A stretch of DNA of 64,000 bases, taken from NCBI GenBank assembly GCA_017466825.1, contig JAFTTJ010000020.1, positions 1 to 64,000 of the forward strand. The letters are read 5' to 3'. The notes under the pieces are model-generated. The model did not search any database, was not told where the DNA came from, and was given only the letters and a program-made list of their open reading frames with translations. Positions 18,840-38,987 of this stretch are shown piece by piece. How positions within the stretch are numbered: position 1 is the stretch's first letter; the number at the start of each line of letters is the position of its first letter. This DNA is from Clostridia bacterium. Its GTDB lineage: Bacteria; Bacillota; Clostridia; Christensenellales; Borkfalkiaceae. The translations under genes and the position numbers were made by a program.

Positions 18840-19409
18840 ATGAAACTTATCGTAGGGCTCGGCAATCCGGGTTTAAAATATCTCAAAAATTTGCATAATC
18901 TAGGTTTTATGGCGGTCGAACTTCTCGCCGAAAAGCACGGCGTAACCTTTAATAAAAAGGGTTTTAAAGGCGTTTATGGTGAAAAGAATATCGGCGGTGA
19001 AAAAATCATATTTTTAAAGCCCCAAACCTTTATGAATTTGAGTGGGGACTGCGTGCAGGAGATTTCGGCGTTTTACAAAATCGCCCCCCAAGACATACTC
19101 GTTATTTACGACGATTTAGATATAGCAATCGGCGCGGTTAGAATTAGGGCAAACGGCTCGGCAGGCACTCACAACGGTATGAGAAGTATAGTTTCAAGAC
19201 TTTCTTCAACCGATTTCCCCCGTGTAAGAATAGGTACTAAACCCGAAGTCGATTATGAAATAATCGATTACGTCCTTTCCGATATCCGCAAGGAAGACGA
19301 GCCCCGTTTCCGCCACTCGGTAAACGTCGCCGTAGACGCAGCCGACGCTTTTATAAAAGGGATGGGGATAGAGCGTGTTATGTGTCAATTCAATTCTAAA
19401 GGCGTATAA
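18840..19409 (+). CDS. pth: Peptidyl-tRNA hydrolase
   Basis: 189 aa. Releases tRNA from prematurely dropped peptidyl-tRNA. GLGNPG at the N-terminus, the catalytic histidine in LHNLGF and the aspartate in IYDDLDIAIG are present. Start follows AAGGAGTAACA. The last four codons and stop (19397-19409) lie within the first unit of the structured repeat that fills the following gap, so the extreme C-terminus appears to be repeat-derived. Confidence 0.95.
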   Translation: MKLIVGLGNPGLKYLKNLHNLGFMAVELLAEKHGVTFNKKGFKGVYGEKNIGGEKIIFLKPQTFMNLSGDCVQEISAFYKIAPQDILVIYDDLDIAIGAVRIRANGSAGTHNGMRSIVSRLSSTDFPRVRIGTKPEVDYEIIDYVLSDIRKEDEPRFRHSVNVAVDAADAFIKGMGIERVMCQFNSKGV

Positions 19410-19524
19410 ACGGCGCAATACTGCGTTTCTGTTTTATTGTCAAGACTTCGGTGACCAACAAGGTCTACCAAACCCTTGCCAATAAAACGAGCCTTGTCTT
19501 GCTTGTTTCTACCCCTTTAGAAGT
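19397..19524 (+). repeat. Tandem unit A of the structured repeat
   Basis: Main stem GTTTTATTG (19431-19439) with CAATAAAAC (19480-19488). Apical helix GGT-GACC, loop AACAA (19457-19461), GGTC-t-ACC. Downstream hairpin AAACGAGC (19485-19492) with GCTTGTTT (19501-19508), which overlaps the 3' arm of the main stem. The 128-bp period links this to unit B. Confidence 0.8.
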
Positions 19525-19652
19525 TAAAGACGAATAAACTGCGCAATACTGCGTTTCTGTTTTAAAGTCTAAACCCCGATGACCAAAAAGGTCTATCGTG
19601 TCTTATCCTTTAAAACGAGCCTTGTCTTGCTTGTTTCTACCCCTTTAGAAGT
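19525..19652 (+). repeat. Tandem unit B of the structured repeat
   Basis: Same layout as unit A but with changed, still complementary arms: GTTTTAAAG (19559-19567) with CTTTAAAAC (19608-19616), apical CGAT-GACC / GGTC-t-ATCG around an AAAAA loop. The 3' half (AAACGAGC...GCTTGTTT to TAAAGACG) is identical to unit A. Confidence 0.8.
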
Positions 19653-19746
19653 TAAAGACGAATAAACTGCGGTATGCGTCGTTACTGTAAGTGGTTTCCG
19701 ACTGGGATGACCAACAAGGTCTATCCCATCCGTCAACCCCTTACGA
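19653..19746 (+). repeat. Tandem unit C (partial) of the structured repeat
   Basis: Third variant: GTAAG (19687-19691) with CTTAC (19740-19744), apical TGGGAT-GACC / GGTC-t-ATCCCA around AACAA. It runs into the downstream hairpin train instead of repeating the AAACGAGC hairpin. Confidence 0.75.
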
Positions 19747-20035
19747 GCGCGTCGCAAATCGGCTTTTTGTTAGCCAACCGCAAAATGCGGTTAGCAAGAC
19801 TTTATAGCCGTTTGCTCCTTTTCCCAAAAATTCTTTTGCAGAGCAAAATTATTTTCGGGATAGATATTAAAGCACGCCGTAGGGGATTGCTTATCCTGTC
19901 AAACTAAGAGTTGTTTTAAACGGCTTTTTATAAACAGCGAGATTATAAAGGATGCAACGTCACGTTGCCGTAGGGGAGGGGCTTGCTCCTCCTATCAAAC
20001 CAAGGTTTGGTTTTAATTAAAATATTTCCCCCAAC

Positions 20036-20073
20036 TGTCATTGCGAGCCTACTGAAAGTAGGCGTGGCAATCT
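20036..20073 (+). repeat. Palindromic end of the repeat (TCATTGCGAGC...GTGGCAATCT)
   Basis: Stem ATTGC/GCAAT with inner GCCTACT/AGTAGGC and a GAA loop. Resembles the widespread bacterial palindromes that start with TCATTGCGAGC. The other copy ends in the same palindrome with an AAA loop. Confidence 0.7.
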
Positions 20074-20158
20074 AAATTTTTAGCAAGAGATTTTATCGCA
20101 TACTACGTATGCCAGAAAGACAATTATAAAAAACCGATCTAAATTTATATAAAAAACT

Positions 20159-23100
20159 ATGCTTAAAAACTACTTAACTTTCGATAATTTAGGGGTAGAA
20201 TTTGAAGATTTCGCCCAAGACGTCCGCAGCGGTTTACCGACTGCGGTTTTCGGCGTTAATTTTGCCGAGCGTTGTCATTTGGCAACGGGGCTTGAAACAC
20301 CCCTTCTATATATAGTTAAAGACGGTTTTTACGGCGCGCGCGTAGCCGAGCAAATGCGTGCTTTAAGCGGTGAAGAAGTCGTTCTTCTTCCTGCCAAGGA
20401 CGACGTTTTGCTCTATAAAAGCGCCTTTGATAAAGAAAGGCTTTATTCAAGGCTAAAAGCCCTTTACCAAATCAAAAGCGGGGCAAAAATAGTAATAGCT
20501 ACGCTCGAGAGTTTACTTCAACTTTTCCCCAAGGACGTACCCTTTATAACCATTGAAAAGGGTGGGGAATACGACCTTTACGACTTGGCTAAAAAACTCG
20601 TCGAAATGGGTTATAAACGTCAAGAATTTGCCGACGAAAAAGGCACTTTCGCCATTAGGGGTGATATTTTTGAAGTGTACCCCGTCAATGAAGAAAAGGT
20701 ATACAGAACCGACTTTTTCGGCGACGAAGCCGAGAGCATCCGTCGCTACGATAGCGCCGACAAAGAGCAAAAGGAAGCGGTTACTTCCTTTACTGCAATT
20801 TGCGCAACCGACGCCCTTATATCCCAACGGGACGTAACGGGTATCAAAGAGCGTTTACGCCAATCGCTTTTAAAATTCAGTACTTTAATCGTTAAAAACG
20901 ACGCTCGCAAAATCGTCGACGAAATAAACGAAAAACTCGATTCCGAAAACTACGTAGCCGACTGCTTACAATTTTTAATGCCCATACTTCCGTCGGTTAC
21001 GACCGACTTTTTATCCTATATGCCTAGCGATACGGTAGTTGCTTTCGACGAGTGCAAAATGCTTGCCGACGGACTTTCCGCCGTCGTAAAAGAGCATACC
21101 GAAAGGACGCTTTCTTTAAGTAGGTCTGGCAAGGCGTTTGACTTTACCATAAAGCAGATGTCCGACGGTGGAGCGCTACTGTCGGCGTTAAATCAAAAAA
21201 GGCGAGTTGCTTTTCAAAATATAACCACGGCGATAAACTTTTTCAATCCCTTAAAAACCTATTCTTTCAAGTGTTCGCCGGTAACACGTTATTCGGTCAA
21301 ACCTACCGACCTTTTCAAAGACGTCGCCAACTGGAAGTTTAACGGTTATAGGGTAATAATTTGTTGTGGAAACACCCAACGCGCCGAAAATTTAGTCGAC
21401 CAACTCTACGACCACGGCGTAACGGCAATCCGCGCGGACGATACCCATTTGCCATGCGGAACGGCGGCGGTTACGACCTTCTTTTTGCCAAGCGGTTTTA
21501 TCTACCACCAAGCAAAGACGGTAGTAGTCGGTACGGGTGATTTATATATTGAAAAAGAACGAGAAAAGAGATTGAAGCGCAAGCGTGGCGATTTATTCCA
21601 AGCCCCCGAAATAGGCGACTACGCCGTACACGAAGTTCACGGTATAGGGCACGTAGTCGGCGTTGAAAGAATAACCACTCAAGAAGGCAGTAAAGACTAC
21701 GTCGCCGTAAAATATTTCGGTGGCGATACTTTATACGTCGGCGTAGACCAAATGGACAGACTCACCAAATACGTCGGTGGGGACGTTCCTAAACTCAACA
21801 AAATCGGCGGACACGAGTTCGAGAGAATTAAGGCGAGAGTAAAAGAGTCTATTGCCGCAATGGCAATCGACCTTAAAAAACTCTACAACGCCCGCAAGGT
21901 TAAAAAGGGCTACGAGTTTTCCGAAGACACCGTATTTAGCGAAGAATTCGAGCAGGCTTTTGAGTTCGAGCCGACGGAAGACCAACTTCAATCTGTAAAA
22001 GAGATAAAAGCCGATATGCAAAGCCCTAAGGTTATGGATAGGCTTCTTTGCGGCGACGTTGGTTTTGGCAAGACCGAAGTTGCGTTTAGGGCGGCGTTTA
22101 AAGCCGTTTACGACGGCAAGCAAGTCGCTCTCGTTTGCCCCACGACTATTTTATGCGAACAGCATTACCGCGCCGCAAAGCAAAGGTTTAAAGATTTCGG
22201 TGTAAAAGTTGCGTCGCTCAACAGGTTTAAAACACTCGCTCAACAAAAGGACGTAATAAAAAAACTCGCCGACGGCGAAATCAATTTCGTCATAGGCACG
22301 CATAGGCTTTTCGGCAAAGACGTCGTATTCAACGACTTAGGACTTTTGATTTTGGACGAAGAGCAAAGGTTTGGCGTAGAGCATAAAGAGCAGTTAAAAC
22401 TCTTAAAGGAAAACGTCGACACCTTGACTATGACGGCAACCCCTATTCCGAGAACTTTACACATGTCCCTTTCGGGCATAAGAGATATAAGCACTATTCA
22501 TACTCCGCCAAGGGTAAGAATACCCGTACAAACCTACGTTATCGAAGAGAGCGAAGCCCTTATTCGCGACGCCGTTCGTAGAGAACTCGCCCGTGGTGGT
22601 CAAGCCCTTATTCTATACAACCGAGTAGAAACCATATATAAATTTTCGTCGGTCGTTCAAGCGATTTTACCCGACGCAAAGGTGATAGTTGCGCACGGTC
22701 AAATGGATAGAAAAACGCTTGAAGATAGCGTTATGAAGTTCTACGACGGCGAATACGACGTCTTAATAGCAACTACTATCATTGAAAACGGTATAGATTT
22801 GCCACGAGCCAACACTTTAATAGTAATCGACAGCGACCACTTAGGACTTTCAACCCTTTACCAGTTAAAGGGCAGAGTTGGCAGAAGCGACAAACTCGCC
22901 CACGCCTACTTTACTTTCAAGCCCGACAAGGTCTTATCCGAAACGGCGTACAAGCGCTTATCCGCCCTTATGGAATTTACGGATATGGGTAGCGGTTACA
23001 AAATCGCTATGCGCGACCTTGAAATTAGGGGAGCGGGTAACGTTTTAGGCAAAGAACAGCACGGACACATGGATAAAATCGGCTACGAACTTTACAGCAA

Positions 23101-23581
23101 ACTACTTAAAGAGAGCCTTGGCGAAAAGAAAGTCGAAAAGGACGTAGAACTCGACGTCAAGATGAACGCTTATATCCCCGAAACGTATATCGGATCACCC
23201 CCGTCTAGAATGGATTGCTATAAGCAAATAGCCGAAATTCAAGGTGATGAAGACGAGTCTAGAATTAGGTCGTCGCTTGCCGAAAATTACGGAAAAGTCC
23301 CCCTAGAAGTCGATAATTTAATACTTATCGCCCGTCTTAAACTTGCAGTTAAGGCTCGTGGCGGTGTAAAAATAACCCTTTCAAGTAAAAGGGCGGCGGT
23401 CGAGTTCGACGGTATCGAAAGTCTAAATTCACCCGAGTTTATCGACCGCATACAAAGTCACGCAAGCGACGTTCGCTTTACCGTCGGCGCAATTCCCGCG
23501 CTCGTGTTTAACGTTGAAGGAAGGTCGGTTGAAGACGTAGCAAGGCTTATGCTCGGTGTTTTTTCGGGCAAAACCGAGTGA
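20159..23581 (+). CDS. mfd: Transcription-repair coupling factor Mfd
   Basis: 1140 aa. Recognises RNA polymerase stalled at DNA lesions, removes it by DNA translocation and recruits UvrA. UvrB-homology N-terminus (about 1-350), RNA-polymerase-interacting domain (about 480-560; GDYAVHEVHGIGHVVG), RecG-like motor with Walker A GDVGFGKTE (about residue 632), DEEQ (about 735) and TATPIPRTL, then the C-terminal TRCF domain. The start has no visible Shine-Dalgarno in an AT-rich stretch just after the repeat. Its partners uvrB and uvrA are also in this window. Confidence 0.96.
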   Translation: MLKNYLTFDNLGVEFEDFAQDVRSGLPTAVFGVNFAERCHLATGLETPLLYIVKDGFYGARVAEQMRALSGEEVVLLPAKDDVLLYKSAFDKERLYSRLKALYQIKSGAKIVIATLESLLQLFPKDVPFITIEKGGEYDLYDLAKKLVEMGYKRQEFADEKGTFAIRGDIFEVYPVNEEKVYRTDFFGDEAESIRRYDSADKEQKEAVTSFTAICATDALISQRDVTGIKERLRQSLLKFSTLIVKNDARKIVDEINEKLDSENYVADCLQFLMPILPSVTTDFLSYMPSDTVVAFDECKMLADGLSAVVKEHTERTLSLSRSGKAFDFTIKQMSDGGALLSALNQKRRVAFQNITTAINFFNPLKTYSFKCSPVTRYSVKPTDLFKDVANWKFNGYRVIICCGNTQRAENLVDQLYDHGVTAIRADDTHLPCGTAAVTTFFLPSGFIYHQAKTVVVGTGDLYIEKEREKRLKRKRGDLFQAPEIGDYAVHEVHGIGHVVGVERITTQEGSKDYVAVKYFGGDTLYVGVDQMDRLTKYVGGDVPKLNKIGGHEFERIKARVKESIAAMAIDLKKLYNARKVKKGYEFSEDTVFSEEFEQAFEFEPTEDQLQSVKEIKADMQSPKVMDRLLCGDVGFGKTEVAFRAAFKAVYDGKQVALVCPTTILCEQHYRAAKQRFKDFGVKVASLNRFKTLAQQKDVIKKLADGEINFVIGTHRLFGKDVVFNDLGLLILDEEQRFGVEHKEQLKLLKENVDTLTMTATPIPRTLHMSLSGIRDISTIHTPPRVRIPVQTYVIEESEALIRDAVRRELARGGQALILYNRVETIYKFSSVVQAILPDAKVIVAHGQMDRKTLEDSVMKFYDGEYDVLIATTIIENGIDLPRANTLIVIDSDHLGLSTLYQLKGRVGRSDKLAHAYFTFKPDKVLSETAYKRLSALMEFTDMGSGYKIAMRDLEIRGAGNVLGKEQHGHMDKIGYELYSKLLKESLGEKKVEKDVELDVKMNAYIPETYIGSPPSRMDCYKQIAEIQGDEDESRIRSSLAENYGKVPLEVDNLILIARLKLAVKARGGVKITLSSKRAAVEFDGIESLNSPEFIDRIQSHASDVRFTVGAIPALVFNVEGRSVEDVARLMLGVFSGKTE

Positions 23582-34952: not shown

Positions 34953-35486
34953 ATGTTATTTAATTTACTTGAAAGCACTACCCCTCCTGCAAACAACGGC
35001 GGAGATTGGTGGATTTGGCTCATTGTTTTAGTACCCTTCGTTATATTGCTTATAGTTAATCATTTTTCTGCTAAAAAGAGAACGGAAGAAGCCGAAGCGG
35101 CAAAACAAAAACGCAACGACATACATCCCGGCTATATTCTCGTAACTATCGGCGGTATCGTCGGCGAAGTAATTTCAGTTAACGACGAAGAAGGTAGTTT
35201 TATCCTTAAAACGGGCGACGAAGAGCATCCTTGCTATTTAAAACTCGACAAGGTTGCAATTTATTCTTGGGAAGATCCCAACGCGCCTAAGGAAGAAGAA
35301 ACTTCTGCCGAAGAGCCTGCTGAAAACGGTGAAGAAGTATTTGAAGAGCATGCAGAAGTTCCCGCAGAAGACGTAGCGGAAGTTCCCGCAGAAGTTCCCG
35401 CGGAAGACATAGCGGAAGTTCCCGCAGACGCTGAAGAAGTTCCTGCAGAAGTCGTAGAAGAAACCGACGGAAAAGACGCTGAATAA
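34953..35486 (+). CDS. yajC: YajC-family preprotein translocase subunit with acidic repeat tail
   Basis: 177 aa. Short N-terminus, one membrane helix (about 17-36, WIWLIVLVPFVILLIV), then the conserved cytoplasmic part HPGYILVTIGGIVGEVISVND. The C-terminal third is unusual: a Glu/Val/Pro/Ala-rich tail made of repeats like EVPAEDVA (residues about 117-170). Position between tgt and secD-secF supports YajC. ATG at 34953 follows AAGGAGATTATT; a TTG frame start at 34926 is rejected. Confidence 0.88.
   Translation: MLFNLLESTTPPANNGGDWWIWLIVLVPFVILLIVNHFSAKKRTEEAEAAKQKRNDIHPGYILVTIGGIVGEVISVNDEEGSFILKTGDEEHPCYLKLDKVAIYSWEDPNAPKEEETSAEEPAENGEEVFEEHAEVPAEDVAEVPAEVPAEDIAEVPADAEEVPAEVVEETDGKDAE
35360..35460 (+). 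repeat. Short tandem repeats encoding the YajC tail
   Basis: Imperfect repeats of GAAGTTCCCGCAGAAG type, 15-30 bp period, translating as EVPAE units. Confidence 0.65.
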
Positions 35487-38642: not shown

Positions 38643-38648
38643 AAATTT

Positions 38649-38987
38649 TAAAGGCGTATAAACGGCGGTATGCGTCGTTACTGTAAGTGGTTTCCGACTG
38701 GGATGACCAACAAGGTCTACCAAACCCTTGCCAATAAAACGAGCCTTGTCTGCGTCGCAAATCGGCTTTTTGTCAGCCAACCGCAAAAAGCGGTTAGCAA
38801 GACTTTATAGCCGTTTGCTCCTTTTCCCAAAAATTCTTTTGCAAAGCAAAATTATTTTCGGGATAGATATTAAAGCGCGCCGTAGGGGAGGGGCTTGCTC
38901 CTCCCGTCAAACCAAGGTTTGGTTTTAATTAAAATATTTCCCCCAACTGTCATTGCGAGCCTACTAAAAGTAGGCGTGGCAATCTAA
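38649..38987 (+). repeat. Composite structured repeat, copy 2 (chimeric, shortened)
   Basis: Starts TAAAGGCGTATAAACGGCG exactly as copy 1 does, then follows unit C of copy 1 (GTAAGTGG, ...TGGGATGACCAACAAGGTCTA), switches to unit A (ACCAAACCCTTGCCAATAAAACGAGC), then returns to the sequence following unit C. The rest (hairpin train, GGAGG/CCTCC stem, palindromic end 38948-38985) is almost identical to copy 1 but lacks about 90 bp present at 19886-19976. Lies between the secDF terminator and recJ. Confidence 0.85.

Follow-up and report, generated by a model that had tools for sequence, protein, structure and literature searches.

Few families of DNA are conserved by shape over letters, and the textbook cases, attC and REP, each have their own kind of enzyme. 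attC sites typically follow stop codons and carry R' and R'' boxes with the consensus GTTRRRY / RYYYAAC. They are described as sequence-variable hairpins in which conserved unpaired features set the choice of strand (PMC2727003). The account of REP and TnpAREP in E. coli is one of folded single-stranded DNA that is recognised strand-specifically, with two stem mismatches required (PMC8266576). ERIC (127 bp), YPAL and other bacterial MITEs are portrayed as short, non-coding, intergenic and mobile sequences with a long stem-loop (PMC2229807), and for the interspersed bcr1-bcr18 repeats of Bacillus cereus, transcription of 51% and 40% of copies is reported from two strains, along with conserved structures for bcr10 and bcr18 (PMC3446304).

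The locus considered here lies in a window of 64,000 nucleotides, the whole stretch of DNA that was analysed, from a Clostridia genome of 1.65 Mb in 39 contigs that is 83.6% complete. It contains a real, structure-conserved hairpin element, present phylum-wide and apparently undescribed so far. We found no earlier description of it in the open-access literature. No known RNA family reaches threshold at the element: Rfam 15 gave 0 matches across the window and just three hits, far under their gathering scores, at the element region, and none of 22 distinct loci from relatives matched at the element.

The pth-mfd array and its fold

The array lies between two + strand reading frames, 18840-19409 and 20159-23581, which we take, as the preliminary description did, to be pth (peptidyl-tRNA hydrolase) and mfd. 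The gap between them is 749 bases and contains two full units and one 3'-truncated unit with a period of 128 bp. TRF places the array at 19397-19671 and 19485-19748, so the 128-bp tandem repeat described earlier is real; of the three units then proposed, the period holds, while the full units start at 19394 and 19522 and the third is incomplete. Unit 1 (19394-19523, + strand) is a full-length element that matches our covariance model at 132 bits (E 6.6e-32), and unit 2 (19522-19651, + strand, 122.2 bits) is also full-length but differs in its P3 helix. Unit 3 (19650-19748, + strand; 73 bits, match 19650-19776) is truncated at GAGC and joined to another dispersed repeat; because it runs into that repeat, which begins at 19749, after 19748, the P2 and P1 helices are left without their 3' arms. 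A fourth, chimeric copy (38646-38775, + strand, 54.4 bits) has a 5' arm from one subfamily and a 3' arm from another, joined at the cap, and directly follows what by eye is a terminator-like hairpin and T tract.

Other repeats accompany these loci. The second dispersed repeat (GCGTCGCAAATCGGC...) occupies 19749-20160 and 38752 onward, after truncated hairpin units, with the junction placed as if at one fixed spot. A third repeat (TGTCATTGCGAGCC...) occurs downstream of both hairpin loci, at 20036-20080 and 38948-38961. A short palindrome, GGATGCAACGTCACGTTGC, lies at 19950-19968; it is fused directly to the element apex at one further locus (L042), and is also found near elements in other species. 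Elsewhere in the window, short tandem repeats with 42-bp and 12/36-bp units, possibly coding, lie at 54891-55111 and 35331-35460.

The element is a single nested, imperfect long hairpin of 13 pairs in P1, 7 in P2 and 24 in P3. In unit 1, all on the + strand, the P1 5' arm (19398-19411, alignment columns 5-18) pairs with 19505-19518 (columns 115-128) around a conserved T·C mismatch, and the P2 5' arm GCAATAC (19415-19421, columns 22-28) pairs with GTCTTGC at 19496-19502 (columns 105-111) around another. P3 (19431-19488, columns 39-97) consists of a variable stem with a 2x2 internal loop and a bulged T, and ends in the cap GACC-AACAA-GGTC. The stop codon TAA of the pth frame, at 19407-19409, is inside the P1 5' arm, which places the last codons of pth within the element.

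The stems, GACC-loop-GGTC-T cap and paired changes of the preliminary description are all present in the units, and its proposal that pairing is maintained is strongly supported, since P1, P2 and P3 all covary. Against dinucleotide shuffles every unit folds more stably, with z of -4.06, -5.21 and -4.74 on the + strand and -4.12, -4.87 and -4.75 on the - strand. From 55 copies with full context we aligned 40 full-length ones (alignment A1), leaving out 15 that were truncated, fused or chimeric and keeping the chimera C27:138056; the covariance model built from A1 (R1) finds matches in this genome and in related ones. Since the structure was taken from the same sequences in which it was tested, both the shuffle and the slide comparisons are biased toward it: both sides change in 33 of 44 pairs, against 27.7 (sd 1.4) in shuffles, and in 364 cells where shuffles give 136.6 (sd 9.3); the covariation score reaches 0.451, shuffles scoring 0.143 (sd 0.008); and 85.6% of cells are paired, a share that falls to 66.4% in shuffles and to 29 to 41% after a shift of 1 to 3 columns. 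One covariation measure, the number of further pair types, was no higher than chance (65 against 68.0 in shuffles).

Competing folds had also been suggested, with a second hairpin GAGC..GCTC as the alternative. The 3' part of that hairpin is in fact the P2 partner of 19415-19421, so both segments belong to one nested structure and competition between folds is unsupported. A division into separate hairpins, CGC..GCG and GAGC..GCTC, was rejected on similar grounds, the inner segments of the two pairing with each other as P2 with compensatory changes; both sides change in 6 of the 7 P2 pairs.

The unpaired positions are conserved as well. Among 35 representatives drawn from the whole order, the P1 T·C mismatch is kept in 29, the P2 mismatch has its T in 34 and the opposite C in 29, and the conserved unpaired bases include C21, T29, G32, T35 and a 3' CC.T. 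The structure also holds in distant members: when eight of them, taken from other orders and classes, were folded one at a time, P1 and P2 could be recognised by eye in all and P3 in most, L346 having a different fold inside.

Dispersal, gain and the search for a mover

Within its own genome the element is dispersed in many copies. A 15-base core, GACCAAMAAGGTCTA, has 45 exact matches in the genome and its reversed control has 0, which excludes chance; R1 finds 73 matches in the 1.65 Mb at E <= 0.001. Many copies are near-identical members of subfamilies that adjoin different genes, while others are chimeras whose junction is the cap, or consist of a right half alone. At four loci (L083, L126, L142 and L278), right-half-only copies, which start near GAGCC or at the 3' arm of P2, lie downstream of a complete element.

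Presence between relatives is patchy. Matches occur in 18 of 41 relatives overall, and within the genus the number per genome ranges from 0 to 81 (15 genomes). In the order the element is present in at least 71 of 396 genomes and 29 of 143 genera, a lower bound with 8 candidates scored per genome. Beyond it, the element was found in 11 of 391 genomes at the level of the class (nine outside the order) and in 6 of 398 at the level of the phylum (five outside the class), the taxa of the searched genomes being known by kinship alone. The architecture recurs across the phylum at near-constant length. Among the matches listed, records with the core pattern came from MAGs of Clostridia or Clostridiales, many from ruminant or deer gut, and from one Christensenella sp. 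Two further candidates had no model match: a Phycisphaerales core-pattern record (L139), which we take to be chance, and a Paenibacillus locus (L345), which we set aside. Phages and viral contigs gave no match with the queries used.

The pth-mfd array itself is specific to this lineage. The readable gap has no element in 13 of 13 congeners, where by eye it is short (under ~100 bases), a fourteenth being left out as a contig end cuts its gap; it is likewise short and without the element in one outgroup from the family and one from the order (L231 and L232). Most simply, then, the array is a gain of this lineage. These congeners are 62 to 88% identical in Pth, which is too distant to resolve the insertion point or a duplication. 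Mobility of the element is well supported.

Searches of 25 genomes for Y1 transposases, reverse transcriptases and tyrosine recombinases turned up no enzyme that tracks copy number. Y1 transposase is present in 12 of the 25. PF01797 (Y1) has 0 matches in the element's own genome and in the high-copy genomes G002, G010 and G021, all incomplete MAGs; the high-copy genomes G001, G006 and G008 do have Y1 genes, which we take to be IS200 copies. An IS200-type Y1 transposase was rejected as the mover, the element being present in one of eight Y1 loci (L243 among L241-L248). The right-half-only copies had prompted the idea of SINE-like spread by a reverse transcriptase, which was set aside with RVT_1 in just 4 of 25 genomes (the element's own, G003, G010 and G015; none in G001, G002, G006, G008 or G021). 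Tyrosine recombinases (PF00589) are present in 23 of the 25; at the three loci that were read, the gene is Xer-like, looks like a housekeeping one and has an HflX-like or LexA-like neighbour. Nor does P1 appear, by eye, to be a general product of copying the target flank in inverted form at each insertion, since similar P1 arms recur at different genes. Because contigs tend to break at repeats and many of these genomes are in fragments, a mover that is itself multi-copy could be absent from the assemblies.

Gene ends, folded DNA and the rival readings

The element sits at gene ends. A crude ORF caller, applied to the best 150 of 159 matches, gave 74 clusters of elements flanked by two ORFs (clusters lacking an ORF on either side were dropped); the upstream gene is on the same strand in 65, with a median gap of 1 bp for those 65 (interquartile -5 to 46). 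Unit 2 (19522-19651) is absent from this match list, presumably because of its two-base overlap with its neighbours. Order-wide, with one of 37 cases at an edge, the upstream gene is on the same strand in 32 of 36, and in 26 of these 32 it ends within -15 to +11 bp. A nearby in-frame stop (ORF >= 100 codons) accompanies 96 of 176 elements, at offsets of -5 to +13 in 87 of the 96; the other 80, for which no such stop was detected, include array-internal and after-terminator copies. Orientation follows the gene in 90 of 100 cases and, by GC skew, the leading strand in 92 of 100, so gene direction and replication direction are inseparable here.

On balance, we think these features are probably best explained by a family of ~128-bp non-autonomous mobile DNA hairpins that are read by a protein as single-stranded DNA and inserted at gene 3' ends. 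One strand of the element would fold into the single long imperfect hairpin of P1, P2 and P3, and selection would preserve the helices, the two T·C mismatches and the internal-loop bases while the remaining sequence drifts. A putative protein supplied in trans would recognise the folded single-stranded form, and would insert or amplify the element where genes end, either at the stop codon or shortly past a terminator, oriented like the gene and like leading-strand synthesis. Reading of folded single-stranded DNA through required mismatches has a precedent in TnpAREP and REP, as described in PMC8266576. Insertion would, by this account, be targeted to gene ends rather than merely tolerated there; against this, the placement may reflect tolerance alone, as PMC3049150 argues for pneumococcal repeats near 3' ends.

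The strongest rival is a cis-acting RNA at mRNA 3' ends, in which the transcript would form the hairpin at the stop codon, so that decay, termination or translation of the upstream gene is controlled, and the copies have spread secondarily. Contact with the stop codon and agreement with the strand of the upstream gene are equally expected of such a 3'-UTR element, and several copies have, by eye, a stop codon on one side and a terminator-like hairpin downstream. Some + strand loops in one family also look GNRA-like by eye, which is an RNA trait. Single or few copies at the same genes in several genera are unlike a pure parasite, which weighs against the mobile-DNA account. Elements are found in different species at the same RNKL-ending gene and, in six cases, at a gene that its protein end marks as queA-like; at both genes the 5' arm of P1 is part of the coding sequence, and its 3' partner shows the compensatory changes, as an RNA element would also show. 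A gene that we likewise take to be rpsG-like is followed by the element in three genera of one family (L256 and L259, L299, L307) and beyond the order in another family (L341, the only one of these where the following gene looked by eye like fusA), and the element's arm sequences are very different between loci. Elements at these genes may be long-standing residents or may have arrived by repeated insertion.

Other evidence argues against the RNA. The host genes form no evident regulon, the fold is kept in copies past terminators, and an antisense copy is present in an rRNA operon: a distant relative at L343 (genome G791, 2 contigs; one locus read of 4 equal-scoring matches) is flanked by the 5S and 23S rRNA genes and runs antisense to both, and by eye L344 (G573, 1 contig) has the same flanks. 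This antisense placement counts against the mobile-DNA account too. The pairs themselves are also informative. G·U pairs are common in RNA helices, and in 12 tRNAs from the same loci they make up 16 of 144 acceptor and T-stem pairs (11%), with no A·C. P1 and P2 are nearly without them, at 0.4 to 1.8% of pairs over six alignments. In P1 and P2 of the 35 order-wide representatives (A4), 617 cells are Watson-Crick, 6 are G·T, 17 are A·C and 57 are of other kinds; for G·U the difference from the tRNA stems has Fisher p ~3e-8, although the cells are not independent. The 90 representatives of a larger set (A3) have 28 G·T and 55 A·C beside 1509 Watson-Crick, and the remaining alignments have G·T to Watson-Crick counts of 13/714 (A5), 2/161 (A6), 4/410 (A2) and 1/273 (A1). 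P3 is less clear: G·T is scarce in A3 (12/1803) but more frequent in diverse sets (26/504 in A4, 17/630 in A5, 7/53 in A6). These counts are affected by many gaps and some misalignment and are not relied upon, which leaves P1 and P2 as the basis of the argument. On the + strand of the element's own genome, A·C cells outnumber G·T by 60 to 8 once the doubtful column pair 30-104 (24 G·T) is left out, an excess that points, if anything, to the - strand.

The scarcity of G·U in P1 and P2 relative to tRNA stems favours selection on folded DNA and suggests that the selected form is DNA. The preliminary description had offered a candidate RNA element, with single-stranded DNA as its other option; the former is made doubtful by the G·U counts together with the mobile-repeat-like dispersal, and the latter is the better reading. 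We place DNA ahead, as an account that could well be correct, and regard a cis-acting RNA as possible and rather less likely. Comparing G·U with Watson-Crick covariation may offer a simple test of whether a covarying motif is a DNA hairpin or an RNA. An earlier use of G·U content, reported in PMC2864571, was to pick the strand of an RNA motif.

We consider it improbable that the covariation is a by-product of template switching, in which one arm of a quasi-palindrome is copied onto the other without selection and the repeat is junk. The scarcity of both G·U and A·C would fit such arm-to-arm copying, as would half-copies, chimeras, and a 3' arm that, from species to species at one gene, follows the coding sequence in its 5' counterpart. 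However, arm correction would erase the two T·C mismatches, which are conserved order-wide, with several unpaired bases, amid changing pairs, and the architecture is the same across the phylum at nearly fixed length. That the elements are true integron attC sites of a lost or divergent integrase is very unlikely and mostly refuted already: they are long variable hairpins with conserved unpaired bases that abut stop codons in gene orientation, but the conserved columns read TATANAC / GTNTCTA with a T·C mismatch in place of the GTTRRRY/RYYYAAC boxes, P1 covaries outside any R-like box, the copies are dispersed with no cassette arrays, and no integron-like integrase was recognised in the three PF00589 loci read.

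Comparison with known systems

Among described repeats, the bcr1-bcr18 families resemble the element in being interspersed; they are reported for the B. cereus group, and the comparison is with their published description. Like MITEs, the element is short, non-autonomous, multi-copy and patchy between relatives, and forms a single long stem-loop. As far as the ERIC and YPAL account goes, most such elements keep their terminal-repeat sequence and have TA ends with duplications, whereas the P1 arms here covary and are not conserved, although they are similar within the genus, and no duplication is seen at pth-mfd, where the relatives are distant (62 to 88% Pth identity).

With REP, the element shares dispersed extragenic palindromes and conserved stem mismatches, strand-specific folded single-stranded DNA being a feature of REP as described. 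It differs in its length of ~128 bp (against 20-40 bp), in stems that vary freely, in the absence from A1 of the invariant GTAG, and, relative to REP/RAYT, in the absence of a Y1 transposase from the incomplete MAGs of its own genome, G002, G010 and G021. With attC as described, it shares a sequence-variable hairpin with conserved unpaired bases after a stop codon; it differs in having neither R boxes nor a cassette array, and in having three helices, including a covarying outer P1.

More tentatively, and with somewhat less probability than the RNA reading, the element could belong to a phylum-wide system of DNA-hairpin mobility distinct from both integrons and REP/RAYT, in which a protein would read 128 bases of single-stranded DNA through mismatches and loops and place them at gene ends, some copies having long been kept at queA-like and rpsG-like genes. 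If true, this would be a third family of DNA conserved by shape beside attC and REP, phylum-wide, multi-copy in gut Clostridia and located at stop codons. The element fits the general logic of REP and attC, and fails the defining sequence features of both.
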